Positions 71-53,925 of a DNA stretch of 64,000 bases are shown here, in pieces (within the stretch, counting starts at the first letter, position 1; each line of letters begins with the position of its first letter). A program made the position numbers and the translations under genes. The stretch lies in NCBI RefSeq assembly GCF_036711975.1, contig NC_091976.1, forward strand, positions 34,720,001 to 34,784,000, in the 5' to 3' direction. This DNA is from Onthophagus taurus. Taxonomy: Eukaryota; Arthropoda; Insecta; Coleoptera; Scarabaeidae. The notes beneath the pieces are model-generated. The model was not told the DNA's origin. It did no database searches and saw only the letters and a program-made list of their open reading frames with translations.

Positions 71-2224
71 CAGGATGATTCATAAGTAATGGGCCAAATT
101 GTAAATGTACGTTCAGGAGGCCAAAATAATAATATTTTCATTAACAATAATGGGTCTTAGTCTGCTCCTTACTGAGATACAGGATGTTAAAGCGAAAAAA
201 ATAAAATAGATTTTTGTTAATAGATCAGCTACTTTTCTACATAATGACTCATAGTTGACTTATAGTTTTTGTAAGGGTAAACAATAATGTGTGAGGGGAT
301 TTGAGTTAACTCGTAGATGTCGCCACATGCGCCATATGAATTAGATGAAATCAGCTACAAATTTTTTATCGCTCATTATTTTACAACATACTTGTTTAAT
401 TTGGATAGCCCCATCATTTCTGTAGAAAAAAGCTATACTTCTTTGATCTTGAAAATATTAACGATTTTCGAGATATTTGAATTTTACTAATTCACTACAC
501 TACATTTCACGGTGGTCGACGTAGCATTAATCTGTTAAGACACAAGCATGGCATGGAATGTTGACATTTACCTAACCGTAATTGATAATTGATAACAATA
601 TTAAACTGAAACCATAAAAAAATTACGTAATAAAACAATTTATTGTACGCCAGTTAATAAAACGAAATACAACATTAGAACAGACTTGAACTAAGACCAC
701 TTACGACAACTGTTATCAAAACCTACATGTTAATGTTGTGCGAAGTTAAATTAAATTTAAGCTTAATTATGAGCTACTGCAAAAGGTTTTCAACATGACT
801 ACCACCAGCATTTATACACGCATTTAACCGTTTGGTTAAGGATTGTCTGACTTTAAAAAACGTAGCGGGATTATTTCGTATTGAATTGGCTGCATCTTGA
901 ATTCTATTCCATAACTCGTCTCGTGTATTTATAGTAGGTTCAGCATAGACCATTGATTTCATGTAACCCCACACATAAAAATCAAGTGGATTAAAATCGG
1001 GACTGCGAGGTGGCCACTGAAATTCACTACCACGTCCAATCCAACGGTGAGGGAATGTTTCATTCAGATGTTCGCGCACAGCACGTGAAAAATGTGGAGG
1101 AGCACCATCTTGCATGAACCACATATTTCTTCTTAGTTGTAATGGAAGATCTCCCAAGAGGTCGACTAAGTCATTATTTAAAAAAATTAAATATGACTCT
1201 CCATTTAAATTAGGAGGTAATTCAACTGGGCCCAGTAATGTATTGCCTATTACACCGCACCACACATTTATTTTAAACTCGTGCTGGAAATGTCTATCTT
1301 TTTTTAAACGAGGGTTTTCGGTTTCCCAGGCATGACTATTTCGCCAATTAAAAACTCCGCGTCTGGTAAAGGTTGCTTCATCCGTGAAAAGAATGTTATT
1401 TAGGAATGTTGGATTATTATTCAATTTTCCTTTTAGCCACTGACAAAATTGAACTCTGATTCGATAATCTGTTGGAAGTAAATTTTGCACAGGTATAAAA
1501 TGATAGGGATATAAATTTTCCTTGTGTAAAATTCTAGTCACGGATGGTTGGCTTATTCCAGTTGCTGCAGACAATCGACGAGTGCTTATTTCAGAATTTT
1601 GCGCAATTCTTACCAAAATTTCATATTCTTGCTGCGTAGTGATAATCTTAGGACGTCCTGTATGATATTTTGGACGAAATGAACCTGTTTCACCCAATCG
1701 ATTATAAATATTTTGAAATATCTTCCGGTTTGGCTGCCTTCTGTAAGGGTACATTTCACGATATTTTCTGGATGCTGCTTGCCCAGAAAAACGTTCTTGT
1801 GCGTAAACGCATAACATGTCTCTCATTTCTTCGTTTGAAAAGTGATTATGTCTCGGCATTTTGATTTATGTTAGGACAAGAATGAATCAGTTTACTTAAC
1901 AATAAAATGTTTTAAACTATTCATTAAACGTAAAAGCTCATTGACGTTTCATAATTCATATGGCGCATGTGGCGACATCTACGAGTTAACTCAAATCCTC
2001 TCACACATTATTGTTTACCCTTACAAAAACTATAAGTCAACTATGAGTCATTATGTAGAAAAGTAGCTGATCTATTAACAAAAATCTATTTTATTTTTTT
2101 CGCTTTAACATCCTGTATCTCAGTAAGGAGCAGACTAAGACCCATTATTGTTAATGAAAATATTATTATTTTGGCCTCCTGAACGTACATTTACAATTTG
2201 GCCCATTACTTATGAATCACCCTG
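71..2224 (-). mobile_element. Complete Tc1/mariner-superfamily transposon with 273-bp TIRs
   Basis: The element is bounded by TA dinucleotides (69-70 and 2225-2226). Its terminal inverted repeats run 71-343 and 1952-2224 and differ by only about two bases that I can see, one in the fifth base of the terminus (CAGGATGATTCATAAG against CAGGGTGATTCATAAG). It contains one uninterrupted transposase gene on the minus strand and sits inside the left arm of the larger fold-back element. Near-identical arms and an intact gene indicate a very recent insertion. Confidence 0.93.
774..1859 (-). CDS. Mariner-like transposase, 361 aa, intact
   Basis: This gene encodes the enzyme that cuts and re-inserts the surrounding element. 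Residues 1-60 form the DUF4817-type helix-turn-helix found in insect mariner-like transposases, and about 70-115 a second helix-turn-helix (motif ISQPSVTRIL). The DDE/D catalytic domain shows D160 (LFTDEATF), D251 (MQDGAPPHF) and D288 (PRSPDFNPLDF), with 36 residues between the second and third acids. No stop or frameshift is present. The start MPRHNHF is the first Met and lies close to the right TIR. The family level is certain; the exact clade (a DD36-37D type) is inferred from spacing. Confidence 0.93.
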   Translation of the reverse strand: MPRHNHFSNEEMRDMLCVYAQERFSGQAASRKYREMYPYRRQPNRKIFQNIYNRLGETGSFRPKYHTGRPKIITTQQEYEILVRIAQNSEISTRRLSAATGISQPSVTRILHKENLYPYHFIPVQNLLPTDYRIRVQFCQWLKGKLNNNPTFLNNILFTDEATFTRRGVFNWRNSHAWETENPRLKKDRHFQHEFKINVWCGVIGNTLLGPVELPPNLNGESYLIFLNNDLVDLLGDLPLQLRRNMWFMQDGAPPHFSRAVREHLNETFPHRWIGRGSEFQWPPRSPDFNPLDFYVWGYMKSMVYAEPTINTRDELWNRIQDAANSIRNNPATFFKVRQSLTKRLNACINAGGSHVENLLQ

Positions 2225-3164
2225 TATAAAACCCGTGCGACAATAGCAACAAACCTCCCAGCAACAAACTTTTACCCGTAATTTCCTATTTACTTTCTTA
2301 GCTGATATCTTCCTTATAATTAGGGATAGCGAAAAACTAAATGCACCACTTGAAAGCTTAAATCTTTCTCTATCTAAAATCAGGTTTTCGTCTGCCGATA
2401 AGTTGATATTAAGATCAATAAAAAATGAAGAACACCGCGCTGTACTTAAAAGAGCTCAAAATTACCAAACTTCAAGGCCTTGTGCAATTGTTACGAAACC
2501 GAATTTTAAAAAACTGTTATCACAGTCAGAAAGGGCGCTCCTTCTGCTATCTTAATCCGGGTTTTCGTCGGTCAATATCTATCGGCGTCATGCTTAAATC
2601 ACCCTTAATGTCCATCCCTACACGCAGAAACGCTTAAGTACTCTTCCTCTAAATAACTTTCTTATATGAGCAGGAGAAAACTCTAGAACTATATCTATCT
2701 TATCGAAAATTTCCTGCTCTTTCTAGTGGTGTATAACACGCGACGATCGCGCGCTTGCACATACACGTTTTGTGCCAAAAACTACTAACGTTGTGGATTT
2801 TTCTGTTTCTAGTTAACTCCTATTTGTGACAGAGTCTGTCACGACGACCTGAGTGAAAATCATTATAAACGATTTATGGAAAAATCCCTGAAATCGGTCT
2901 AAAGATTTAACTTTTGTGCAATTTTTTGGTATAGATTTCAAAATTGTTCCCTCATTTTTAACCCTTTAACGGTTAGCGGCTTTTATAGAGACCACTTGTC
3001 AATAAGGTCAAATAGTTGCATTACCATAACTAAATCGTTTCTAAAAACGAAAAAATAATGTACCCGTTAAACGGTTTAACGAGTTATGACGCAATCGATA
3101 TTTTTTTCAAATGGCAATCCCCCATTTTTATTACGGAATACAAAAGAAGATTTTTTTCTGAATC

Positions 3165-3572
3165 TATACTCTGTTTTTAAACCGGGAGGAGTAAACGCGA
3201 AAGTCAGATTTACACTAGGAAAAATCACCAGAAAATATCACTAGATATTTTGGCGGTAAATTTAAATTAATAATTATTATTATTTATTTATTTACTTATT
3301 ATTGTATTTATTTTCGTTTGTTATCGTCAACACTAAACATACAAATTAACATTGAAGTTATGAGTGTATTTATTTCAAAATATAATAAAGAAGGGTTTAA
3401 GAACACAAAATTTACAATAATGACACGAAACTGTCGAATTGTCAATAACCTAACCTTCAAATTCAAATTCAAAATTGCCTGTGTGTGAACCTTCCTCGCA
3501 TTCAACCAATCACGTGCAAGATCAATCTGGTGACAAATTTAAAATACTCCTCCTGGTTTAAAAACAGAGTAT
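3165..3572 (+). repeat. MITE copy A (TIR CTCTGTTTTTAAACC)
   Basis: A 0.4-kb non-coding repeat bounded by TATA and the imperfect inverted pair TATACTCTGTTTTTAAACC / GGTTTAAAAACAGAGTAT. Three further copies lie at 4965-5364 (same orientation), 52632-53019 and 53546-53925 (opposite orientation), all with the same internal sequence. No ORF of note. It forms the left border of a composite that includes the 122-bp array. Confidence 0.85.
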
Positions 3573-4612
3573 CATTGCCAAAGAAAACTTCAAGGTATAA
3601 TTAATGTTTGTAAACAAAACTAACCTTACCTAACATTCCTTCACGCTATAATTGACATTACAAAAGAAAACTTCACGCTATAATTGCCATTACTAATTGC
3701 TAAAGAAAACTTCATGGTATAATTAATGTTTGTAAACAAAACTAACCTTACCTCACATTCCTTCACGCTATAATTGACATTACAAAAGAAAACTTCACGC
3801 TATAATTGCCATTACTAATTGTCAAAGAAAACTTCATGGTATAATTAATGTTTGTAAACAAAACTAACCTTACCTCACATTCCTTCACGCTATAATTGAC
3901 ATTACAAAAGAAAACTTCGCGCTATAATTGCCATTACTAATTGCCAAAGAAAACTTCATGGTATAATTAATGTTTGTAAACAAAACTAACCTTACCTCAC
4001 ATTCCTTCACGCTATAATTGACATTACAAAAGAAAACTTCACGCTATAATTGCCATTACTAATTGCTAAAGAAAACTTCATGGTATAATTAATGTTTGTA
4101 AACAAAACTAACCTTACCGAACATTCCTTCACGCTATAATTGACATTACAAAAGAAAACTTCACGCTATAATTGCCATTACAAATTGCCAAAAAAAACTT
4201 CATGGTATAATTAATGTTTGTAAACAAAACTAACCTTACCTCACATTCCTTCACGCTATAATTGACATTACAAAAGAAAACTTCACGCTATAATTGCCAT
4301 TACTAATTGCCAAAAAAAACTTCATGGTATAATTAATGTTTGTAAACAAAACTAACCTTACCTCACATTCCTTCACGCTATAATTGACATTACAAAAGAA
4401 AACTTCACGCTATAATTGCCATTACTAATTGCCAAAAAAAACTTCATGGTATAATTAATGTTTGTAAACAAAACTAACCTTACCTCACATTCCTTCACGC
4501 TATAATTGACATTACAAAAGAAAACTTCACGCTATAATTGCCATTACTAATTGCCAAAGAATACTTCATGGTATAATTAATGTTTGTAAACAAAACTAAC
4601 CTTACCTAACAT
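3573..4612 (+). repeat. Tandem array, 122-bp unit, about 8.5 copies
   Basis: The phrase TTCATGGTATAATTAATG recurs at 3711, 3833 and 3955 and so on at a spacing of 121-123 bases up to about 4567; the first unit (3589) has TTCAAGG. Each unit contains two related half-units (CTTCACGCTATAATTG). Units are nearly identical, which implies recent amplification or homogenisation. The array abuts MITE A directly. A shorter inverted array lies at 53111-53545. Confidence 0.92.
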
Positions 4613-4658
4613 TCAGCGTCTGAAGACACAGGGCTAAACCCGAAACTTAAAAATATAC

Positions 4659-4909
4659 TGTTACCAGACGCGTAGAAAGGATAACACCAACAAGTGGCTG
4701 TAATCCGAAACCAGAAGAAGAGATAAACGTAAAAAAGTATAAAAGCACGTACAAATCTATTGTTTATTCAATTATTAATCAACTTCTTAATAACCCACAT
4801 ATTAATTCGTTAAAATTGTAATTCGTAGTTACTTTAATTTTCTGTGTGATTGTTTTTTGAAAATAAAACTCTTTTTAAAAACAAACCAACGCGGTCGGTT
4901 ATTGTAATT
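4659..4909 (+). mobile_element. Solo LTR, 251 bp, with 4-bp ATAC duplication
   Basis: A fossil LTR-retroelement trace, not a full element. It begins TGTTACCAGACG, carries a TATA-like box (about 4737) and a polyadenylation signal (about 4859), and is flanked by ATAC at 4655-4658 and 4910-4913. The other copy of this composite (around 53060-53085) lacks it and keeps one ATAC, giving an empty site. A 4-bp duplication suggests the Gypsy group. It is younger than the composite it sits in. Confidence 0.7.
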
Positions 4910-4964
4910 ATACAACTTAGGGCTGAATAACAATTAAAACTAGAACTAACACTTGCACTAGAAC

Positions 4965-5364
4965 TATACTCTGTTTTTAAACCAGGAGGAGTAAACGCGA
5001 AAGTCAGATTTACACTGGAAAAAATCACCAGAAAATATCACTAGATATTTTGGCGGTAAATTTAAATTAATAATTATTATTTATTTATTTACTTATTATT
5101 GTATTTATTTTCGTTTGTTATCGTCAACACTATACATACAAATTAACATTGAAGTTATGAGTGTATTTATTTCAAAATATAATAAAAAAGGGTTTAAGAA
5201 CACAAAATATACAATAATGACACGAAACTGTCGAATTATCAATTACCTAACCTTCAAATTCAAAATTGCCTGTGTGTGAACCTTCCTCGCATTCAACCAA
5301 TCACGTGCAAGGTCAATCTGGTGACAAATTTAAAATACTCCTCCTGGTTTAAAAACAGAGTATA
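4965..5364 (+). repeat. MITE copy B, right border of the composite
   Basis: Same family and orientation as copy A, with TATA on both sides (4965-4968, 5361-5364). Between it and the array lies a tail containing the motif AACTAGAACTAACACT, a piece of a dispersed repeat seen elsewhere in the window. Confidence 0.85.
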
Positions 5365-5384
5365 GTACATTCAATATTAATATT

Positions 5385-5905
5385 GGTTACATAAGAAAAT
5401 TTTCGAGAAAAATTAGTTTAAACTTTAATTATTTCAAATTTATATAAATGATAAAAATAGCAGTAGCCATGAGTAACTATGGTAACCAATAATTTTTAAC
5501 AATTCCCTGTTTGTCAAAAACTGATTTAGTAGCTTCTTGAGGTGTGGTGGCGCGCCATCTTGTTGGAATAACTGCCGTTGGAATTGAGTTGGGTCAAAAT
5601 TAGCGGGATGGAAGGAATAGCACAGTTTTCAAAAATTTAAACATGTCTTTCCAGTTAAGGTTTCCTCAAATCTTTTGCGGATATTGGGTGTGCGCATCAT
5701 AATGTCTACAGTAAAGTAACTAAATTTAAAGTCTACTAGTATGTTTACTAGTAACTCTACTAGTATGGGATGTAATCACAAAGTGTCCTGATTTTTCAGC
5801 ATATAATACGGTGGTGAGGGAAAAAAGTAGAGTTGCCATTTAAAAAAATAAACTTTTTGAGATACGGAAATTTGACGCACATTTCTGACCATCCCGTATA
5901 ACTTT
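5385..5905 (-). mobile_element. Relic mariner-like transposon fragment
   Basis: On the minus strand around 5545-5575 the sequence encodes QQDGAPPH, the hallmark around the second catalytic Asp of mariner transposases, with flanking plausible but broken coding. Further right is a terminus-like stretch (about 5885-5905, CATCCCGTATA). The MITE/array composite separates it from similar-looking AT-rich sequence at about 2870-3164, so the composite probably landed in this old element. No intact ORF. Confidence 0.5.
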
Positions 5906-6584
5906 AATTAACAATTGTTGTTAAATTAAAGTGTATAATTGTTATTAAAAGACACCATTAGAAAGAGCAGAAAATTTTCAATAAGATAGATATGTTTCTA
6001 TAGTTTTCTCCCGATCAAATAAGAAGGTTGTTTAGAGGAAGAGTATTTAAGCGTTTCTGCGTGTAGGGATGGACATTAAGGGTGATTTAAGCATGACGCC
6101 GATAGATATTGACCGACGAAAACCCGGATTGAGATAGCTGAAGAAGCGCCCTTTCTGACTGTGATAACAGTTTTTTAAAATTCGGTTTCGTAACAATTGC
6201 ACAAGGCCTTGAAGTTTGATAATTTTGAGCTATTTTAAGTACAGCGCGGTGTTCTTCATTTTTTATTGATCTTAATATCAACTTATCGGCAGACGAAAAC
6301 CCGGTTTTAGATAGAGAAAGATTCAAGCTTTCAAGTGGTGCATTTAGTTTTTCGCTATACCTAATTATAAGGAAGATATCAGCTAAGAAAGTAGATAGGT
6401 TGTTGCTATTGTCGCACGGGTTTTATATATTGATGTTAAGAAATTAAAATTTTTTGTAACAAGTTTATTCTTGTATAACTATGAATCAGCGGTTGTCACC
6501 ATCACTTTATCCACCTTTATAAGTGTCACCTCGTCATAGCTTGTAAGCTAAGAATAAAACAACAATTTTCTACAATCATTTTTA

Positions 6585-6963: not shown

Positions 6964-9630
6964 ATGGATCGTTCGGACAGCTCATTTTGTAAATCGCCAG
7001 CTGATCAACTATTAAAAGCAGTTCAAACAAATGCAATTTCAACGATAAAAACCATCATTGACGAAAATAACGATTTAATCAATGAAATTTATCCGAAATT
7101 TCAAAAATCGATCGTTCAAATTGCAGTTTCAAATTATTCTAAAACCGTTTCAAAAGAAACAGTTTCTTGTTTAATAGAACTCGGAGCCGATCTTTATTTA
7201 AATGTAAGCGATAATAATAATCAACAAACCGTGCATTTCGCCGTTTTGGGTCAAAACCCAACAATTTTAAAAACGATCGTAAATAAACTTGGTAAAAATC
7301 GGATTAACGATGTCACAAAAATGAAAGAAACTGCTTTACATTTATTGATACGAGATGGTGATGGGAAATCAAAAGATTTTGAGAATTGTTTGGATGTTTT
7401 ATTAGAAAGCAACGATGTTGATGTTAACAAAGAAGATAGAAATGGGAATACGCCTATTTTCATTAGCGTTCGAAAAGGTTATAAGAACGTTGTTGCAAAA
7501 TTATTGGGTTCAGGAAAAAGAGTTGATGTGGATAATTATAGTTATCGAGGGAAAACTTTGAGGGAAATCATTTTGAGTTGGAACATTGAAATTAACGACC
7601 AAAATTTTAACCGAAACCCGCATGAAAATTTAATCAGTTTCATTAATACGAAGAATGAAGATGGATTTATAAATTATTTTAATCAAAACGAAGATAATTT
7701 TGATTTTAATGACGCTATTTTCAACAACGAGACGATCCTTCAAAGCGTGTGTGAAAAAAATTTAATCAAAATCGTCGATTTTTTATTAACTAAAGAAATC
7801 GATGTCAATCAAATTGGGAATTTAAATCGAAAATCGCCCTTAGAGATTGCATCTGAAAATGGGTTTCACGCGATTTTTAAAAAATTATTACAACAACCAT
7901 CAATAAAAATCAACGAAAACATCTTAATAAATCTATTACAAAACGTTATTTATAAACCAAACGAAGATTGCAACCACAAAGATTGCTTAAAATTTTTATT
8001 GAATCAAAACAACGTTAACATCCCTATTAACGTTTATAAAGATGGAAACACCCCGTTACATTACGCCGTGAAATATTCAGATCGCGAAACGATTATTAAT
8101 TTATTAAAACGCGGAGCTTCGTTGGGAAACAAAAACGTTGAGGGTGTTATGCCGATCGATGATATTTACGCGGGAACTTTAGAAACGCATTTAAATAATT
8201 GCATAAAAACGAAGAATAACCCACCGTGTGATCGTCAAAGCACAATCGTTTCGTTTGATTATTCCACGTTATTTTGTAATTACCCCAATGAGGGGTTAAA
8301 AAATTACGAGAACGTTTCATTAATCGATGGGAAAAATCAAAAAATTATTCCGGAAAGTGATGTAATTTTATCGATAAGTAAAAATTCGGATTTAAAATAT
8401 TTGCTGAAACATCCCGTTGTTTCCGGGTTGTTGTATTTAAAATGGGAAAAAATGAAACCGGTTTTTGTTATTAATTTCATTTTTTATTTAATTTTTATGA
8501 TGTCTTTAATCGGATTTATTTTTTTTAAGGAATATTCAATTTTTTATTATTTGTTATCGTTTACATTTACTGTATTAGTTTTAAGGGAAATTATTGAATT
8601 GTTTTTGGCCCCATTAGTTTACGTTAAAGATACAGAGAATTATATCGAATTCTTTTTAATCCTCGCAACATTTTTAACTATATTTTATAAAAATAACGAA
8701 TCAGATTTATGTTATAAACAAATCTCCGCCAGCTCAATCGTGTTGGGCTCTATTGAGATGATGTTATTAATCGGGCAATTACCACTATTTTCGACTTATA
8801 TCTCAGTGATTAAAACGGTTACTTGGAATTTTTTTAAGTTTATAATTTGGTCGATATTTTTACTTATCGCTTTTACCCTTGGCTTTTATATCATTTATCA
8901 CGAACCAAAAGAAATCAATAAAAATAACTCAACAAAACCCGAAGAAACCGACTTTTTCGCCGACCCTACATTAACTTTCATCAAAGTAATCGTAATGAAA
9001 ATTGGGGAATTGGACGCGAGTTCTTTAACATTAGAAACTTATTTAAGCAAAATATTTTTTTTATTTTTCATATTTATGGTAACAATAACCCTTTCGAATG
9101 TGCTTAACGGTTTAGCTGTAAGTGATATACAAACCATAAAAAATAACGCGGAAATCGTAAGTTTAGTTGAACGAATCGACCGGATTGTTTATGTAGAAAA
9201 AATGCTTCTTGGTGATACATTATTATCAAAAATTTTAAGAGCTTTTGTGCGCTATTTTTGTTGTTGTAATGATAATTGGACTGATCACGAAATCCCAACG
9301 TCGATTGCTAAGAAAATATTTTTGTTTCCTTACACATTCAAAAATAACCAAATTGAAATGTTACTTTATTACAAAGGCGAAATTGTTAAAGAAAATAAAC
9401 TAACTGGTTGTTATAAAAAATGTGATAAAACTCGCATGAATTCCAAGGTAATGAAGAGTACCAAAGAGATTGTATTGAAACGATTAAATTCGGACCGAGA
9501 AATTGTCGAAGAACGGTTATTAAATGTTAAAAGAAGTATTGATAAAATTGTTGATGAATCGAAAAAAGGGAGTGTTGAGTATTTGGACGTTATAAATAAT
9601 TTGAATGCTTTAGAAAAGAATTTTTGTTAA
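6964..9630 (+). CDS. pain: Painless-type TRPA cation channel, 888 aa (copy 1)
   Basis: A plasma-membrane cation channel of the TRPA family; Drosophila painless serves noxious heat and mechanical sensing. The N-terminal half (about residues 50-410) is made of degenerate ankyrin repeats. Six membrane segments follow: about 499-521, 527-551, 558-576, 585-607, 619-645 and 695-722. The conserved S6 end NGLAVSD is present. The C-terminus is lysine-rich and helical. The whole protein lies in one exon; the ATG is preceded by a likely 3' splice site (CTATTTTTAG at about 6950-6959), so a non-coding 5' exon probably lies upstream. AATAAA lies at about 9712. The pore reads MKIGELD, where copy 2 and Drosophila have MLTGEFD. 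Confidence 0.93.
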   Translation: MDRSDSSFCKSPADQLLKAVQTNAISTIKTIIDENNDLINEIYPKFQKSIVQIAVSNYSKTVSKETVSCLIELGADLYLNVSDNNNQQTVHFAVLGQNPTILKTIVNKLGKNRINDVTKMKETALHLLIRDGDGKSKDFENCLDVLLESNDVDVNKEDRNGNTPIFISVRKGYKNVVAKLLGSGKRVDVDNYSYRGKTLREIILSWNIEINDQNFNRNPHENLISFINTKNEDGFINYFNQNEDNFDFNDAIFNNETILQSVCEKNLIKIVDFLLTKEIDVNQIGNLNRKSPLEIASENGFHAIFKKLLQQPSIKINENILINLLQNVIYKPNEDCNHKDCLKFLLNQNNVNIPINVYKDGNTPLHYAVKYSDRETIINLLKRGASLGNKNVEGVMPIDDIYAGTLETHLNNCIKTKNNPPCDRQSTIVSFDYSTLFCNYPNEGLKNYENVSLIDGKNQKIIPESDVILSISKNSDLKYLLKHPVVSGLLYLKWEKMKPVFVINFIFYLIFMMSLIGFIFFKEYSIFYYLLSFTFTVLVLREIIELFLAPLVYVKDTENYIEFFLILATFLTIFYKNNESDLCYKQISASSIVLGSIEMMLLIGQLPLFSTYISVIKTVTWNFFKFIIWSIFLLIAFTLGFYIIYHEPKEINKNNSTKPEETDFFADPTLTFIKVIVMKIGELDASSLTLETYLSKIFFLFFIFMVTITLSNVLNGLAVSDIQTIKNNAEIVSLVERIDRIVYVEKMLLGDTLLSKILRAFVRYFCCCNDNWTDHEIPTSIAKKIFLFPYTFKNNQIEMLLYYKGEIVKENKLTGCYKKCDKTRMNSKVMKSTKEIVLKRLNSDREIVEERLLNVKRSIDKIVDESKKGSVEYLDVINNLNALEKNFC

Positions 9631-23800: not shown

Positions 23801-26800
23801 CAAATCAAACGATTCAAATTCAAAATACACAACAACAACCAATTCAAGTGAGCACCCCGATTTCTGTAACGAGAAACTCCGAAACGGGGTTACAACAAAT
23901 CCGGGTACAACAAACCGCTTTGACACCGTCGCAACAACAGCAAATTTTACAAAGTTTAAAACAAAAAGTTGTTCCAGTTCAATCTTCAGTTTTGGGGGGA
24001 CAACAACAGGTTGTTGTTAAACATAAAGGGATACAGAAAAATGTTGCTTCGGGGACGTCGTTGTTGGGATCAAATCGGATTAATACAGGTTTGTGGAGAT
24101 TTCTGGGTCTAGTGTTAGTTCAACTTTTTGTTCAATATACCGCTGAATAACAATTAAAACTAGAACTAACACTTGACCTGGAACTGGAAAGACATTCTAG
24201 TTTTACACTATCACTAGAACTAACACAAGACCTAGAACTAGAATCATTCGGGTTTAGACTTTACGTGCGAATAAACCCGAATGATTTGAGTTTTAGTTCA
24301 ATAAAAAATTTAAAATTAATTTTTTTTTGTAGATAACGTTTCGAAATCAATTATTAATAGTAATCAAACCCCTTTGGTGGCTAAAGTGTTAACGAACGCC
24401 GCTGGGCAGGTTATTTCCGTTGAGAGTCTTTTAGCTCATCAAAAACAACACGGTTCTTTACCGCAAGGTTAAAATTTTTTCTTTTATATTAACATAAAGA
24501 TAATTTTAACTTTTTATAGGAACAACGGTTCGTGTTTCTGGCATGAAAGGTTCCCCAACGAACATAATTCAATTAGCTCCCACAAAACAATCTGGAGGAG
24601 TAACTCAATTAGTCGGTTCTCAAAATAACATCATAGCAATCACGAATCAACCAAAATTGGTGTTTTCCTCGCAAGCGATGACCAACACAACCGTAACGAC
24701 GACGAGTACAACGACGAAAAGCAACGCGAAAAGCTTAAAAACGCAAACGGTGACGAAGTTTACCCCAAAAATCGCCCAACAATTAATCAACGCGAAATTT
24801 GTGCAAAACGTTGATAATAAATCGAAAATGTTGTTGGGCCAAAACCAATTAAAAACAACACCGAAATCGATCACCGTTACAAATAAATCAATGCCAACTC
24901 AAGGAAATACGAACGCTATAAGAATGGTGAACGCCGCGAATTTAAATTTAACGCATATCGGAGGGAAACCCGTTTTATTAGCGTCAAAAGGAGGTTCGTT
25001 ACAAAATTTACAAGGTCAAAATGTGATCATACAATCGACTTCACCTCAAAACACCAGCTCCGTTAACGTGATTAACCAAGGAAACACTCAGTACGTTTTG
25101 GCCCCACAAATTAAAGTACAACAAAGTCCTCAAGTTTTATTGAGTTCTTCAAACGTGAAGGGGAGCGTTCAACAAGTGGGGCAAAGCGGGCAAAGTCAAT
25201 TGGTGTTGGGAGGACAACAAGTGAGGTTACAAAGCGGTGGTACGTCTAATCAACGAGTTGTACTCGCAAGTCAAGGACAAAGTGGACAAATTGTTGCTCA
25301 ACAAATTCTTTTACCCGCCGGGTTTCAAGGAACCGCAATTAATATTAAAGCGTTACAAGGGGTTAAAGTTATTCCTATTGCGCAAGCTCAACAAACTGCA
25401 AAAGGTAAATGTTAGTAAAATTAGTTTTAATTAATTACTTTAATTGCTTTAATTATTATTAAGAGTTTATTGTATACAGTAATTGTTTACAATTCTTTAC
25501 ATTATTCAAATATTACTTTCACTCTCTACCCTCTTCCTCCATTTCCACGCCCTCGGCTCCTCGGCCCAATCATCCCCTCACCCATCCCTTTGTCTCCTCA
25601 CCCCCATCACCATTCTCATCCATCGTTTCGCCTCTCCCCCCTCTCCTAAGATCTGCCTTCGGTCCATCTCCTCCTCCCTCAACTCACTGCACCCATTCAG
25701 CATGTGTTCTAACGTTTCCCATTCCTCCCTGCACAGCCTACACCACCTCTCCTCATCGGCCATCCAGTATTTGTTGGCTCTCTCCTCGTTTACACAACGG
25801 AACCTAGCCACCAACTTTTTCACTTCCTCATCTCTTTCCAATATATAATTATGTCCCTGTATCTTTCGTTATACTTTCCCTCTTTTATTTGTGTCCTTCT
25901 TTCCTGTCTCTGCACATCTCGGTCCCTGTCTCTCAACTCCCTCCACATCTCCCTACCCACCCTTCGTCTACTATTTATCTCCGTTACCGAGTAACCCGCT
26001 CGTCTATAATAGTTGTCTCTGTGTCCTTTCCCATATCTGACCTTTCCCTCTCTAATTTCCCTCCAACATTCCCCCAGGATCCCGCAGCTTGGCCTCCCTT
26101 CTATTCTTTCTTCATATTTCACTGCCCTCCTGCTCGCCTCCACCCTGACCTTATCCACCTTTACCTCTTCCCTCACTATATACCCCGGTGTTTCTCTCGC
26201 CACCCCAAGCATCCATCTCCAATATCTAGCCTGCACGTCCTCCAGCGGTCCCTGCTCCCTCCATCCCCATACCTCTGCCCCATACATCATCACACTGCTA
26301 ACCAGACCTTCAAACATAATCTTCCTCGCTGCCACATTCCTTCCAAAGACTCTCTTCCCCCAACCCCATACTTGTCCCATCACCTTATTCGCCTTTTTTG
26401 CCATAGCTATCACATGCGACCCCTCCCTGTTATCCTCCCTAAACACATACCCCAAGTAAGTATACTCCCTAACCTCCTCGATCTCCTTTCCCTCCCATCT
26501 CCAGTTTTCTGTTCTTTTTCTCCCACCCTTACAAAACTTCATCATCCTTGTCTTCCCCACATTCACTTCCAGCCCCTTCCCCCTAAAATATCTTTCCAAT
26601 GTCTTTATCATCTCCTTCATCTCCACCGCTTCTCTCGCCATGACCACGATGTCATCCGCGTATGCTAAAATATGCACCTTTCTACCTCCCACCACCAATC
26701 CTCCCATCTGCCCCTTCCCCAATCTTTCCTCCAGGTCCGCCGTATACAGTGCAAACAGACTTGGGCTCAGCGGACATCCCTGCCTCAGTCCCTTCGTCGT

Positions 26801-36800: not shown

Positions 36801-39315
36801 GCCGCACTTTTGTTATCGTTGGACTTCACCAAAGCATTTGATACAATAAATCATAATATACTTGCATCTAAACTTAATTATTTTGGTCTTGAAAATCAAG
36901 CCGCAATTTTGATAAAGTCATTTTTGTCGGACAGGTCTCAGGTTGTGAAGATTAATAGTCAAGTGTCGAGCGCTCTGTCTGTTACTCGTGGAGTCCCTCA
37001 GGGGTCCATTTTGGGGCCACTATTGTTCTCTATTTATACATCTGATTTTGACCAGGTTCTCGAGCATTCGCAGATTCACTTGTATGCAGACGATACACAG
37101 CTTCTGCTGAATTTTAATCCAAATAATTGGGTTGATGCCTGCATAAAATTTAACTCAGATATAGCATTATTTTCTGATGTTGCGAAACGCCATGAACTTG
37201 TGCTAAATCCATTTAAGTCTTCTGTTCTTCTGTTTTGCGGTAGTGTCACAAGGAGAGCGATTAAGCCTTTGATATCCGGTCAATTGGTGGTGGATGGCGA
37301 ACCTCTTACTGTTTCTGATGATATAAAAATTTTAGGAGTCACATTGGATCATCAGTTGAGGTTTGAGGAGCATGTGGCCAGGTGCTTGAGGGGTGGGTAT
37401 GGCGCCCTGCGTCTCTTGTATGCCCATAGGGATGTCTTAAGTAAAAAATTAAAAATTATGCTGTGGTTCTAAGCAAATTAAATCACTGCGACGTTGTTTA
37501 TGGTCCAAATTTAACGGAGGCGAGTGGGCGTCGTATCCAGAACCTTCAGAACGGTTGTCTGAGGGTTATTTATGGAATTCGTAAATATGACCATATTAGT
37601 CATAAATTGGCAGAGACTGGGTGGTTGAACATGAAAATCAGACGTAAACTGCATGCAACTTGCGTTTATTATAAAATTATTAAAAGTCAGCGGCCTCCTT
37701 ACTTGCTGCAACGTCTATCTTTCAGAAGCGATGTCCATAACATTAATATAAGGAGGAAAGATGTATTGACGGTAGCACGCCGCGCTTCGCACCGATCCTT
37801 TTCCTACCAGATAGCTAAAACGTACAATGATCTACCTATGAACCTTATAGGATTGAACTGTATTTCGTTCAAGAGTAAATTAAAATCCTCCCTCCTGCTT
37901 GAGTCATCATGATTACATGAGTTACTAATGTATCGCTTTATACTGGCATGTCGTCGTATTTTGTTATTTTGTTTTTTTTTTTCATTTTGTTTATTAGTAT
38001 TGTTAAAAACATTATCATTTTTGCTTTATATATATATTTTCTATATATTCTGGATTAAGTGGAAAAGCAGTTGGTTAATAACCAAACTGAACTTCGTCCA
38101 GAAAATAAGTCTATTTTCTAAGAGTGTATTATTATTTTCTTTCCTTTTTTTGCGACTTATTAATAAAGGCATTATTATTATTATTATAGTGTTAGTTCTA
38201 GTTTTACACTATCACTAAAACTAACATTAGACCTAGAACTAAAATCATTTGTATGATCAATGTTGATTGTGTAATCCATTTACTAGTATATTATAATTAG
38301 TTTTAAAAATGAAAATTATAATAAATATAGTTTCTTAAACTAAAATTAGAACTAACACTAGAAACTTTCGGGTTTTGCCGTGCGTCTTTTAAGAAAAGGT
38401 TTGACGTTTTGGATGTCATGTTGCAACCTTCTTCAGAAACTGGTAACCCTGAAAGTTTCTAGTGTTAGTTCTAATTTTAGTTTAATTAACTCCGGCCGTA
38501 AAAACCTTCGTACTTATAATATAGTTTCTGTACTTTATTACTGGTTTATTATTCGTATTTATTAAGTCATCATTATTAAAATAGAATGACTCATAGTCGA
38601 AACATGTTAAGCTAAATTTTATACTTAATCCTACAGAGAATACATGATTAAAATGTTACAGCAAAACATACAACGGCCCAACGTATTCACTGTAGGGTTA
38701 ATAAACCAGTAATAAAGTACAAAAACTGTATTTATTATAATTTTCACCTTTAAAACTAATTAAAATCATTTGAGTTTTGTCGCACGTCTCTAAAAACGGC
38801 TAAACCAGAATGATTCTACATCTAGGTATAGTGTTAGTTCTAGTTTTACACTTGCACTAAATTCATAGACTTTTAGGACCGGTGTTATTAGTAATAATTT
38901 TATAAAGTACTTTTAATTTATTTCTTTTTAGTCGCTTAATTCGATCAACTTTAACATTACTATTACTTTTTGGTGTTCCTTACGTTATATTCATCGTAGT
39001 TTATTTTTGTGAGAACGAAACTTTGTTGTACATCTGGTTATTTTACGACCAAGTTTTCACAGCGTTTCAAGTAAGCAAATTAAAACATTTAATGTTACTA
39101 ATGTAATTAATCTCAATTTTCATTAGGGTTTCTTCGTTTCATTACTTTATTGCTTATTAAACAAGGAAGTCCAAACAGAAATTAAAAATAAATACGAAAT
39201 CTTAAAAATCAAGCACAAATTTCCACGAAGATCAAGAAATTCATCGCACGATGATGCAACCAGGGAATCTTTTGAGTCGAGGATTAAAAATTGGTTTAGT
39301 TCCACCGAGTTTTAA
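33825..39315 (+). CDS. Class B1 (secretin-family) GPCR, PTH-receptor-like, 417 aa
   Basis: A peptide-hormone receptor of the plasma membrane. Exons: 33825-33980, 34071-34297, 34356-34521, 34574-34730, 34783-34913, 34967-35055, 38932-39070, 39127-39315 (1254 bases, in frame). The extracellular hormone-binding domain has the six expected cysteines (FCDPVFDGFLCWP; KFCTSSGYW; TQCW). All seven membrane segments are present: MHLFASFILR in TM2, SILANYMLILMEGVYLHNL in TM3, FGVPYVIF in TM6 and FFVSLLYCLLNKEVQ in TM7. The closest family by eye is PTH receptor; PDF and other B1 receptors are not excluded. No signal peptide follows the first in-frame Met, so a 5' exon may be missing. Intron 6 is 3.9 kb because of a LINE. 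Confidence 0.88.
35155..38190 (+). mobile_element. LINE (APE endonuclease + RT), 5'-truncated, in the GPCR intron
   Basis: 35155-35330 encodes the start of an AP-type endonuclease (NNIDIFAMTETWL, IPGYNLVRRDR). The frame changes near 35330, then 35334-37472 carries the rest of the endonuclease and the reverse transcriptase: SLDFTKAFDTINH (motif A), RGVPQGSILGPLLF and LYADDTQLL (catalytic). A second break near 37470 leads to the C-terminal region (37463-37912). The 3' end is a short ATT repeat. CR1/L2-like by eye; clade uncertain. It sits inside a CTAGAAC-type repeat: the left part ends at TTCTAGTTCTAGG (about 35150), and the right resumes GTGTTAGTTCTAG (about 38190). Confidence 0.88.
38190..38262. 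repeat. Right half of the CTAGAAC-type repeat split by the LINE
   Basis: Contains TAGTTTTACACTATCACT, AAACTAACATTAGACC and AGAACTAAAATCAT, the inverted continuation of the left half at about 35110-35150. Confidence 0.7.
38336..38484. repeat. Hairpin repeat of the CTAGAAC family
   Basis: A 149-bp inverted repeat: AAATTAGAACTAACACTAG at about 38341 pairs with CTAGTGTTAGTTCTAATTT at about 38460. The loop contains GCCGTGCGTCTT. A complete small fold-back member of the family. A related hairpin follows at 38755-38875. Confidence 0.75.
38755..38875. repeat. CTAGAAC-family hairpin copy
   Basis: AATCATTTGAGTTTTGTCGC pairs imperfectly with GGCTAAACCAGAATGATT across CACGTCTC; CTAGTTTTACACTTGCAC follows. 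It ends about 60 bases before a GPCR exon. Confidence 0.6.
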
Positions 39316-49446: not shown

Positions 49447-50309
49447 TTTTTAAGGAAAAAATTAAAGTCTAATTAAAGTAAAAAAAGAAACGAAAGAAGA
49501 AACCTACAAAAAGTGTACATTTGCTATTTCTCAATATGATTATAATTAAAAACATTATTTTTTATTTACATTACTGATATACCACTTTATATATAATATT
49601 GTTATCGATTTATTACGCATTATTATTCGTTGCGCTCAGATTTTCTTTTTTAAATTGGGTTTTCCAATACATTTATTATTGATACACTGTAAAGTTTAAA
49701 ATTAATGCCTAATGTTTAGTTGTTAGTCTTGTTATTTTTTGTTTGTAAATAATATCTACATTAAAGAAAAATAAAATTTGTTTTTTAGATTATCTTGTTG
49801 ATTTATAGATAATAATGATCATATTTTATTTAGAAAATATTTACATCTTTTCTATTTTAAAGTTGCTTTAAAACAATTCTTTATTAGATTAAATCCTTTG
49901 CGATGGAGGGCCTACATTGTTTGACACCAATTCTGTGATGATATGGTTTATTTAGCCGAGATCGCTTGCTTTGTTGATTTTTCAACATTTATGTAGTCGG
50001 TAAAATAGGGTACTGTTGCTAGCATGTAATTTTGGTTGCATAACTACAAAATCATGGTGTGCAATCTCAAGGTTTATATGTTAAAGGTTATCTAAGTTCC
50101 TATGCTGCAATACTTTGATTTTAGTTTGTAGGCGAGGAGTAAGAGCAGGAGTGTTTCGTGACGTAAGCGATCACAGATTGCGCACGCAACCGCATGGCCA
50201 TATGGTGCTCCATGCATTTGTTTAATTTGAATTGCTTGGCGGTATTATTTTCCACATGTGACGTAATGCGCAGTATGGTTGCGTACGAACCTAGACAACC
50301 TTTTATATA
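49447..50309. other. USF 3' UTR and spacer
   Basis: The 3' UTR ends near 49790. 49890-50309 is less AT-rich, with no ORF of note; it may be old inserted DNA but shows no recognisable ends. Confidence 0.5.
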
Positions 50310-51933
50310 CAAGTGTCCCGCAACGATTGTACAAAACTGCATCAGCGTATTCTATGATCGAAAATAAACAAAAAAAGCCTAATAAACATAGGTCCGAAAA
50401 TGGACCATTTTTGAGATATTCAAAGATTTAGTTTCATAAGTTGATATTGTTAACATCATGAATTTAAATTTGTTTTTATAATAATTAAATCGTTACTATG
50501 ATTACGATAAGTTGTCTAATCAAAAAAAAATAATACTTGACGAAATTATTATTTTACTATTTAATTTAATGAAACTATTAAGTATTGCTCCTATTAATTA
50601 CTCCAAGGAAGAGATGGCGGATTGGTGTATCGTTACGGACTAGCTGATGGAACTGCGTCGTTAGCAGCTCGTCATTACGCGCAAAGGTTCCCGAACAGAC
50701 GATTGCTTAATAGTCACACCTTTAGCAGACTATTTCTCAGATTAAAAGAAACGGGAAGCGTTCCACGGAGAGACATTACACAAGGCCGGTGGAATTAGAA
50801 GAAGCAGTTTTGAGAAGAGTCGATGAAAATGCCTCAACCAGCATTAGAAGAATTTCTGCACAAGAAAACATTAACAAAACAACCGTTCACCGCATTTTAA
50901 GGGAGCAGTTGCTTTATCCTTATCATTACAACACCGTTCAAGCTCTAACAGAAAATGATGGCGAAAAAAGAGAGATTTTTTGTAGGTGGGCCATATTTAC
51001 GGATGAAGCAACATTTACTCAAAGCGGAATTTTTAATATTCATAATGCGCACGTTTGGAGCGATGAAAATCCCCATGCAATACTAGAAACTCATCATCAG
51101 TGGCGATTCAGTGTTAATGTATGGGCTGGAGTTATAGGCGATCAGTTATTAGGTCTATTTTTTCTTCCAAAGAGATTGACAGCCGATGCCTACATACATT
51201 TTTTACAAAACGACCTTACAGAGGCATTTGATGAATTACCTCAACAAATTCTAGAAGATTGCTACTTTATGCACGATTATGCACGCGCTACTCGAGCATA
51301 CTTAAATAACAGATTTGGCAATAAGTGGATTGGCCGAGGAGGGCCACCTCGTTCACCAGATTTAAATCCGTTAGATTTTTGGTTTTGGGGACATTTAAAA
51401 CAAATTGTTTATTCTGAAGACGTTCAAAATGTGCAGGATTTGAAGAATAAAATTAGTAACGCATTTGACACAGTAAAACAAATTCCTGGTATCTTTGAAC
51501 GCATTAGAAGTTCATTTAGAAAACGTATCCGTTTGTGTTTAGAAGTAAATGGTGCGCATATTGAACATTTATTATGACATGAATCTTTTCCAATTTGTTA
51601 AATATTCCTTGTTTTTATGCTGGTTGAACGATTTTTTTCGACAATCTTTGTTACTTGTTTTGTTAAATTATTAATGAACTGTATTAATTAACTTAATATT
51701 ATCTTATTATTTATTAAACTTTATCTTAACCATCGTAACCATGGTAATCATATAATTACTGCATCTAAATCGTTAGAATTAATGATGTTTACAATAGGTC
51801 AGCTTATGAAACTAAAACTTTGAATATCTCGAAATTGGTCCATCTTCGGACCTATGTTTATTAGACTTTTCTTGTCTGTTTTCGATCAGAGAATACGCTG
51901 ATGCAGTATTGTACAATCGTTGCGGGACATCTG
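50310..51933 (+). mobile_element. Mariner-type transposon, 1624 bp, decayed
   Basis: TA borders (50308-50309, 51934-51935). The inverted ends CAAGTGTCCCGCAACGATTG / CAATCGTTGCGGGACATCTG extend about 150 bp into matching arms with many differences, so it is an older copy. It carries the transposase remnant at 50600-51577. Confidence 0.88.
50600..51577 (+). pseudogene. DUF4817-type mariner transposase, frameshifted
   Basis: The N-terminal helix-turn-helix (GLADGTASLAARHYAQRF, LFLRLKETGSV) lies at about 50640-50765 in a different frame from the rest (50789-51577, 262 codons). The first Asp (IFTDEATF) and third (PRSPDLNPLDF) are present, but the region of the second is altered from the family's QDGAPPH to HDYARAT. 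Some residues before FTDEATF are missing. Related to the intact transposase at 774-1859 but from another subfamily. Confidence 0.85.
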
Positions 51934-51935
51934 TA

Positions 51936-52631
51936 TAAACCTTGGTGAAATCTTACTACTATAAAAATGTAGACCGAGTTTTAGTACCCTCACAATCCAC
52001 TGGATGACGTTGTAGACTGAATTTGCAGCAATCTGCATTATCTACACAAACAAAGCGCTTGAAACCATAGAAAAATTTATGTGTAACGTCAAACCACGTC
52101 AAACTCACAATCAGAGGTGAAAGCAAACGTCACATTTTTGTTTTGTCGTTTAGTGTGATAACCCCGTTGTATAAGCAAATTTTCTTCCTTACGTTCATTT
52201 GGCTTAGTGTTTTATATTCTTTAGTTAAGTATTTAAATAAGTTAGGGCCACTTTTACCACCTCTTGATAAGTTTATCCGATAGATAAATTGGCGCTCTCA
52301 GCCAATGAGAGCAATATACGTTAAAAATCATGAATATTATCTTGGAAAAACTTTAAATTAATATTTTTTCCTATTTATTTGGAAAATGCGCATTACCTCC
52401 TCAAAATAAAGTAATGGTATAAACCGGTATAGAAATACCTATATTTAAATTTCGCGCTTTAACTTAATTAGTTCCCTCACAATCCCCTTGGGAGCGCTTG
52501 TACCAAAAAATAGTGGGGAGATCACCTTCTATATACATAATACATATAAATTTTTCTATGTACAAAATGTTTGCAATTTAATTTATGTAAGTTTCGAAAG
52601 TTTTTTACAATCTATAATATCGTATCATAAC
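51936..52631. other. Gene-free stretch
   Basis: About 700 bases with no ORF or recognisable repeat ends. It lies between the mariner element and the second MITE/array composite. Confidence 0.5.
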
Positions 52632-53019
52632 TATACTCTGTTTTTAAACTAGGAGGAGTATTTTAAATTTGTCACCAGATTGACCTTGCACGTGATTGGT
52701 TGAATGCGAGGAAGGTTCACACACAGGCAATTTTGAATTTTGAATTTGAAGGTTAGGTTATTGACAATTCGACAGTTTCGTGTCATTATTGTATTTCTTT
52801 ATTATATTTTGAAATAAATACACTCATAACTTCAATGTTAATTTGTATGTATAGTGTTGACGATAACAAACGAAAATAAATACAATAATAAGTAAATAAA
52901 TAAATAATAATTATTAATTTAAATTTACCGCCAAAATATCTAGTGATATTTTCTGGTGATTTTTCCCAGTGTAAATCTGACTTTCGCGTTTACTCCACCT
53001 GGTTTAAAAACAGAGTATA
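52632..53019 (-). repeat. MITE copy C (inverted orientation)
   Basis: TATA borders; the same family as copies A and B, here reversed. Followed at 53020-53110 by the composite tail (CTAGTGCAAGTGTTAGTTC, CGCTGAATG), without the solo LTR present in the other copy. Confidence 0.85.
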
Positions 53020-53110
53020 GTTCTAGTGCAAGTGTTAGTTCTAGTTTTAATTGTTATTCAGCGCTAAGTTGTATATTTTTAAATTTCGAGTTTAGCCCTG
53101 TGTCTTCAAA

Positions 53111-53545
53111 CGCTGAATGTTAGGTAAGGTTAGTTTTGTTTACAAACATTAATTATACCATGAAGTATTTTTTGGCAATTAGTAATGGCAATTATAGCGT
53201 GAAGTTTTCTTTTGTAATGTCAATTATAGCGTGAAGGAATGTTCGGTAAGGTTAGTTTTGTTTACAAACATTAATTATACCATGAAGTTTTCTTTGGCAA
53301 TTAGTAATGGCAATTATAGCGTGAAGTTTTCTTTTGTAATGTCAATTATAGCGTGAAGGAATGTTAGGTAAGGTTAGTTTTGTTTACAAACATTAATTAT
53401 ACCATGAAGTTTTCTTTGGCAATTAGTAATGGCAATTATAGCGTGAAGTTTTCTTTTGTAATGTCAATTATAGCGTGAAGGAATGTGAGGTAAGGTTAGT
53501 TTTGTTTACAAACATTAATTATACCTTGAAGTTTTCTTTGGCAAT
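53111..53545 (-). repeat. Inverted 122-bp tandem array, about 3.5 units
   Basis: The same unit as 3573-4612, reversed; the TTAATTATACCATGAAG phrase recurs every 122 bases. It abuts MITE D through the same GGCAATTA junction seen next to MITE A, so the composite was copied as a block. Confidence 0.9.
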
Positions 53546-53925
53546 TATACTCTGTTTTTAAACCAGGAGGAGTATTTTAAATTTGTCACCAGATTGACCT
53601 TGCACATGATTGGTTGAATGCGAGGAAGGTTCACACACAGGCAATTTTGAATTTTGATTTTGAATTGACAATTCGACAGTTTCGTGTCATTATTGTATTT
53701 CTTTATTATATTTTGAAATAAATACACTCATACTTCAATGTTAATTTGTATGTTTAGTGTTGACGATAACAAACGAAAATAAATACAATAATAAGTAAAT
53801 AAATAAATAATAATAATTACTAATTTAAATTTACCGCCAAAATATCTAGTGATATTTTCTGGTGACTTTTCCTAGTGTAAATCTGACTTTCGCGTTTACT
53901 CCTCCTGGTTTAAAAACAGAGTATA
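53546..53925 (-). repeat. MITE copy D (inverted orientation)
   Basis: TATA at 53546-53549 and 53922-53925. Closes the second composite. Confidence 0.85.

Follow-up and report, generated by a model that had tools for sequence, protein, structure and literature searches.

Tandem arrays between two directly oriented MITEs in Onthophagus taurus: a composite repeat family very probably dispersed en bloc

Introduction

How short satellite arrays are dispersed through genomes is an open question. The accessible portions of two reports describe arrays dispersed inside single MITEs or Helitrons (PMC12628747, PMC5139131). miDNA4 and Xstir of Xenopus (PMC12628747) and DTC84/pearl of bivalves (PMC5139131) resemble the repeats described here in that a non-autonomous element is associated with a satellite-like array of variable unit number, and miDNA4, a Tc1/mariner MITE, is thought to have captured an existing repeat (PMC12628747). 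In those systems, as far as these texts set them out, the array lies inside or beside one element (PMC12628747, PMC5139131), whereas here a complete, directly oriented MITE stands on each side of it. The family described here suggests a different route of dispersal, in which two such MITEs carry the array en bloc. In the open-access literature, a scope outside which most subscription papers fall, we found no report of two MITEs carrying a satellite between them, and the main text of one Tenebrio paper held no match to 122 bp or 186 bp.

TIME-COMP elements of bacteria are blocks bounded by two Tn3-derived MITEs (PMC13367494). According to the accessible text of that report, passenger DNA lies between the MITEs and target duplications lie outside the outermost ends, as in our repeats, and an autonomous relative supplies the transposase in trans (PMC13367494), which by analogy may also hold for the composites proposed here. 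The same text gives duplications of 5-6 bp, a resistance-gene cargo and, for the commonest block, three sites (PMC13367494). The composites described here, unlike TIME-COMP, are eukaryotic, have a TA duplication, carry tandem repeats and number roughly 200-250 copies. The elements of macrotransposons are reportedly in direct orientation, going by the title of Huang and Dooner 2008. In the available part of the account of Ac macrotransposons in maize (PMC9910405), the termini of two neighbouring elements likewise pair and carry the DNA between them; those have 8-bp duplications, a cargo of 10-28 kb and few loci, whereas ours have short MITEs and form a many-copy family. For AgaP2-P12MITE of Anopheles gambiae, en bloc transposition of two neighbours with the intervening DNA has also been proposed (PMC1562414). 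That case has a single MITE, two unlike ends and P-type 8-bp duplications, and the accessible text describes no complete MITE pair or tandem array (PMC1562414).

Here, we analysed a 64,000-nucleotide stretch of the Onthophagus taurus genome (C11:34720001-34784000 of the 290.8-Mb assembly), hereafter the window, and confirm and extend the observation of a block made up of MITE, 122-bp array, tail and MITE. The block is very probably a composite (macro-)transposon, in which two direct MITEs carry the array and the tail and move with them en bloc. We also lean towards regarding it as a natural eukaryotic two-MITE composite that has become a recently amplified repeat family; a pre-existing piece of tandem repeat would thereby have become mobile and been seeded at about two hundred places, where new arrays can grow. 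The presence in one genome of composites, diverse solo MITEs, MITE-free relatives of the cargo and empty sites makes the order of events testable.

Results

Two composites in the window

At positions 3165-5364 of the window (composite 1), two MITEs of the same orientation, both on the + strand, flank a tandem array and a tail, just as the original prediction had described (Table 1). The same arrangement recurs inverted at 52632-53925 (composite 2). It had also been claimed that the MITE/array junction recurs exactly; this is off by one base, the junction of composite 1 reading TATC and that of the family TATA. Tandem Repeats Finder gives 8.5 and 3.5 units for the two arrays, the difference in length that had been noticed at the outset.

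The MITE is about 380-410 bp long, and its TIRs of 28-29 bp consist of TACTCTGTTTTTAAACCAGGAGGAGTA and its complement, with small variants, adjoining TA. It is thus short, has TIRs and a target duplication, and occurs as dispersed solo copies, as described below. Counted with the adjoining TA, the left and right MITEs of composite 1 span 3165-3572 and 4965-5364. Relative to the left MITE of composite 1, the remaining three MITEs of the two composites show 91-96% identity; identity to the query unit is 94-99% for the units of both arrays.

The family tail is about 95 bp long, both in composite 2 and in 20/20 of the tail-selected loci introduced below. That of composite 1 is longer because a 243-bp insertion, which may be solo-LTR-like, sits inside it. 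The first 44 bases of the tail have no special fold, and its end resembles window repeats at 24142-24185 (93% identity to the last part of the composite 1 tail) and around 38188-38482. Repeat copies at 24100-24260 and 38186-38860, to which the tail end is related, are rich in CTAGAACTAACACTAG and partly hairpin-like.

The target duplications of LTR retrotransposons measure 4-6 bp, and their terminal repeats lack TIRs. We considered an LTR retrotransposon with terminal direct repeats and rejected it on account of the TA duplication and the 28-bp TIRs in each terminal repeat.

Table 1. Positions of the composites, their parts and related arrays (window coordinates unless a contig is named)
Feature	Position	Strand	Evidence or remark
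TA target duplication, left outer side of composite 1	3165..3166	.	Empty host copies with TA (6/7) or TT (1/7)
Left MITE of composite 1, TIR TACTCTGTTTTTAAACC(A/G)GGAGGAGTA	3167..3572	+	BLAST and TIR matches; L state at 9/9 diagnostic columns
Array of composite 1, 8.5 units of 122 bp	3574..4614	+	Tandem Repeats Finder
Tail of composite 1	4615..4964	+	Family form is 4615-4658 plus 4907-4964
Secondary 243-bp insertion in composite 1 tail	4659..4901	+	TATAC on both sides; absent from composite 2 and the 20 tail-selected loci
Right MITE of composite 1	4967..5362	+	R state at 9/9 diagnostic columns
TA target duplication, right outer side of composite 1	5363..5364	.	Empty host copies
Host repeat holding composite 1	2225..6427	.	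Inverted arms 2225-2732 / 5952-6427; composite-free copies elsewhere
Right MITE of composite 2	52632..53019	-	R state at 6/9 and L state at 3/9 diagnostic columns
Tail of composite 2	53020..53114	-	About 95 bp, as in the family
Array of composite 2, 3.5 units	53115..53547	-	Tandem repeat and similarity matches
Left MITE of composite 2	53546..53925	-	Joined outer flanks have no join-spanning copy elsewhere
Free arrays	C1:5094096-5095324 (L085-L087), L088, L089		Diverged 83/122-bp units

A genome-wide family with fixed junctions

The junctions of the block recur throughout the genome. The left MITE/array junction has 149 exact matches (205 at ≤3 mismatches), and the array/tail and tail/right-MITE junctions have 250 and 232 matches, respectively, at ≤2 mismatches; reversed control patterns of all junctions gave 0 matches genome-wide. 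Cores of the 122-bp unit number 1529 at ≤2 mismatches (control 0), about six per tail. MITE 5′ ends number 519 at ≤3 mismatches, suggesting that most close relatives of this MITE sit in composites, although this comparison is rough in that the patterns tolerate unequal numbers of mismatches.

Thirty loci selected by similarity to one window unit resolved into 17 distinct arrays, counting that of the window itself. The left MITE was present, whole or in part, in 16/17 of these (L031 keeps its last bases only) and the tail in 17/17, once at a distance of about 1 kb. The right MITE was seen in 11/17 and was absent behind the tail in five (L012, L027, L030, L032 and L036); the right side of L022 ran off the locus. 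The expectation that such arrays are regularly bordered by the MITE is supported, with the right MITEs of this sample speaking against full uniformity. The tail-selected sample comprised the first 20 of 100 listed matches, all on contig C1. The left MITE was present in 18 of these loci, the right MITE in 18 and both in 17, so that two related elements flank passenger DNA in 17/20; the exceptions are L043 (neither MITE), L053 (no left MITE) and L052 (no right MITE). Left MITEs also vary in position and state, being offset by about 170 bp in L044, diverged in L052 and truncated in L012 and L040. Two loci suspected of lacking MITEs, L083 and L084, proved to have both.

MITE interruptions could reflect a hidden long form of the MITE. 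We compared 11 inserts (that of L054 was dropped, as it starts with unit sequence) and found only those of L055 and L056 to be alike, and this possibility was ruled out.

Insertion sites and empty sites

The counts that follow pool MITE-, unit- and tail-chosen loci, of which the MITE-chosen ones are biased towards left MITEs that are intact. An array cut out more than once was counted once, and L006, a distinct composite, stands outside the MITE, flank and unit counts.

Among 39 arrays with a readable left flank, we found 25 distinct left outer edges (27 listed 8-mers, minus the internal tail junction of L040 and a one-base variant, L042, merged with the commonest edge). Distinct right outer edges number 18. 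Composite 1 lies within a long-TIR repeat (Table 1). When its flanks were joined, 40 join-spanning matches were scored among 948 first-look candidates. The copies of this host that were fetched are all empty of a composite (7/7), and none holds a solo MITE at the site (0/7); six read GAATC-TA-GTA and one reads GAATC-TT-GTA. The occupied site in the window reads GAATC-TATACTC...GAGTATA-GTA. Comparison of the two forms shows that the block went in whole and duplicated TA.

A second site lies in a hairpin repeat that holds a composite in one arm; the other, uninserted arm reads GCTAC-TA-GATTAAAA. A third lies in a 186-bp satellite at L041, whose other monomers have a single TA. Three places unrelated to one another thus have empty sites, which define the element as TACTCTG...CAGAGTA and its target duplication as TA. 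The target duplication thus lies outside the outermost MITE ends, as had been predicted, and the block occurs as a unit at unrelated sites. Of the distinct edges, 20/25 on the left have C before the TATA and 15/18 on the right have G after it.

The composite in L041 splits the 186-bp satellite array into two parts (1-732 and 3413-6114), one tandem repeat having been carried into another.

For composite 2, no copy in the genome spans the joined flanks, and only the outer 49-66 bases recur, which points to a separate insertion as judged by sequence comparison.

The flanks bear on whether the composite could have arisen a single time and then been multiplied solely within larger repeats or segmental duplications. 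Twelve of the 39 arrays share the flank of the hairpin host and four (composite 1, L007, L010 and L039) that of composite 1. Copies with the same host flank would be of common descent; we infer that two insertions were copied again with larger host repeats and that part of the copy number is hitchhiking. As an account of the whole family this is very unlikely, since each of the other 23 left flanks was seen only once, composite 2 has flanks without a site-spanning copy, and both hosts as well as the 186-bp satellite occur without a composite. Shared outer flanks, which the original prediction had named as the finding that would speak against it, thus explain a part of the arrays and not the 23/39 with a flank of their own.

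Left and right MITEs and their solo relatives

We compared 26 left and 20 right complete MITEs. Identity averaged 98.5% among left copies and 98.4% among right copies, and left-right identity was 97.0% between loci and 96.9% within a locus (11 loci). Nine diagnostic columns separate the two sides: 22/26 left copies have the L state at all nine, and 15/20 right copies have the R state at all nine. The left copies that are not fully L (L025, L045, L057 and composite 2) are L/R mosaics. Among the right copies that are not fully R, L054 and composite 2 are mosaics, and L023, L042 and L045 have ambiguous columns. The mosaics indicate that exchange between MITEs also happens. Given the side-specific states of the left and right MITEs, the block descends from one founder.

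Array length follows a regular phase, being n+0.5 units in 30/36 arrays with an abutting left MITE (46 rows). Unbroken composite-type arrays range from 0.5 to 13.5 units; the 14.75 units of L039 are a span with an interruption. This phase and the side-specific MITE states together indicate that the block was copied in one piece, with mainly the number of whole units varying.

Solo-type MITEs were read at 13 loci, their solo status being based on 0.6-1.05 kb read around each MITE. We compared the nine complete ones, leaving out L070, L071, L074 and L078 (truncated, split or interrupted). Solo-solo identity has a mean of 90.8% (range 82.5-98.3%), and the solos are more diverse than composite MITEs and mostly L-like; none of the nine has the full R state. 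Solo-type ends adjoin TA in 13/13 left-reading and 10/10 right-reading cases, with C before in 10/13 and G after in 6/10, and the target context of the composites is like that of the solo MITEs. Contig C1 has four solo-type MITEs at 13.8-29.8 Mb, and among the matches listed, no exact tail match lies between 9.5 and 34.7 Mb of this contig. The composites may be confined to its distal arms.

Recombination offers another route to the same anatomy, in which extrachromosomal circles of MITE, array and tail would integrate by homology into solo MITEs, with no block transposition. A similar circle route is the subject of speculation for directly oriented MITESen1 blocks in bacteria, in the accessible part of that report (PMC13367494). 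The direct orientation and some of the L/R mosaics fit this account, in which the TA borders would come from the solo MITE, and in L081 a MITE lies between two tails, as though two composites had this MITE in common. Yet the outer halves should then resemble the diverse solos, and the left and right MITEs are instead uniform; R stands at all four 3′-half columns in 16/20 right copies and in 0/9 solos, and the empty host sites hold no solo MITE. We consider recombination of this kind most improbable and retain transposition of the whole block between its outer ends.

Free arrays and the origin of the cargo

The three isolated unit-core matches on C1 that we read (three of three) are arrays of related, diverged units, 83 and 122 bp long, with about 87-96% identity to the window unit (Table 1). 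These free arrays are about 0.7-1.2 kb long at the three loci. Neither MITE nor tail was found in the stretches read, which include both borders of one array and one border of each of the others, with <0.2 kb beyond. We infer that the composite took up a piece of this diverged free-array family, the free arrays being the likely source of the passenger.

That MITEs instead inserted repeatedly beside satellite arrays at a favoured site is scarcely credible: the TA target, the C-TA-G preference, a matching TA in the array and the existence of diverged free arrays would permit it, but the side-specific MITE states, the fixed junctions, the n+0.5 phase and the absence of a MITE from the sequence read at the three free arrays all speak against it.

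At L043 (about 4131-4610), an array and tail have a MITE on neither side, and the array begins at the usual TA-ATTGCC junction. It is possible that this is a pre-MITE locus or that both MITEs were lost.

A model for en bloc dispersal

Under the composite transposon reading, two MITEs of the same family would have come to flank, in direct orientation, part of a tandem array together with a fragment from a different repeat. Acting in trans, a transposase would pair the left end of the left MITE with the right end of the right MITE, and the whole block, roughly 0.75-2.6 kb, would move, duplicating TA at targets that mostly read C-TA-G. The founder would have been amplified to roughly 200-250 copies. 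Later, array length would have changed by whole 122-bp units, individual MITEs would have been lost or split by other elements, and two of the insertions would have been multiplied again within larger host repeats.

The proposal that a MITE pair mobilizes the DNA between them, and so disperses a satellite, is supported by the fixed junctions, the unrelated flanks and the TA empty sites at three places. It needs qualifying in two respects, in that the array has diverged, MITE-free relatives and that its spread was also helped by larger host repeats.

Candidate transposases and neighbouring elements

The TA target duplication of the composites is that of Tc1/mariner elements and, as the one character used for this assignment, suggests a Tc1/mariner-like transposase. 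The TIR-pattern matches that were read yielded no autonomous element carrying these TIRs. With the MITE interior excluded, one TIR pattern gave 8 exact matches among 833 and a second gave 14 matches. With four of the 8 exact matches read, the autonomous candidates L076, L077 and L079 turned out to be MITE variants. In L078, the sequence after the TIR also starts a 1.5-kb insert in the MITE of L048 and is probably an insertion of another element. L059 was likewise rejected as an autonomous partner: the P-type transposase element nested in its solo MITE (386-4953 of the locus) has a 668-aa frame with TNP-like domains and inverted ends of its own, GGGGTCATACAC.

The DDE elements at 67-2228 and 50306-51937 of the window lie near the composites and were rejected as partners, as their inverted repeats differ. 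The first has 277-nt inverted repeats (99%) and ends at the start of the repeat that hosts composite 1; its open 361-aa frame (774-1859, minus strand) matches DUF4817, with DDE_3 below the cut-off. The second is DDE_3-like, with 139-nt inverted arms, and lies about 700 bp from composite 2. Two long frames, at 6964-9630 and 54301-56991, lie one near each composite and may encode TRPA/painless-type channels with ankyrin repeats, which they resemble.
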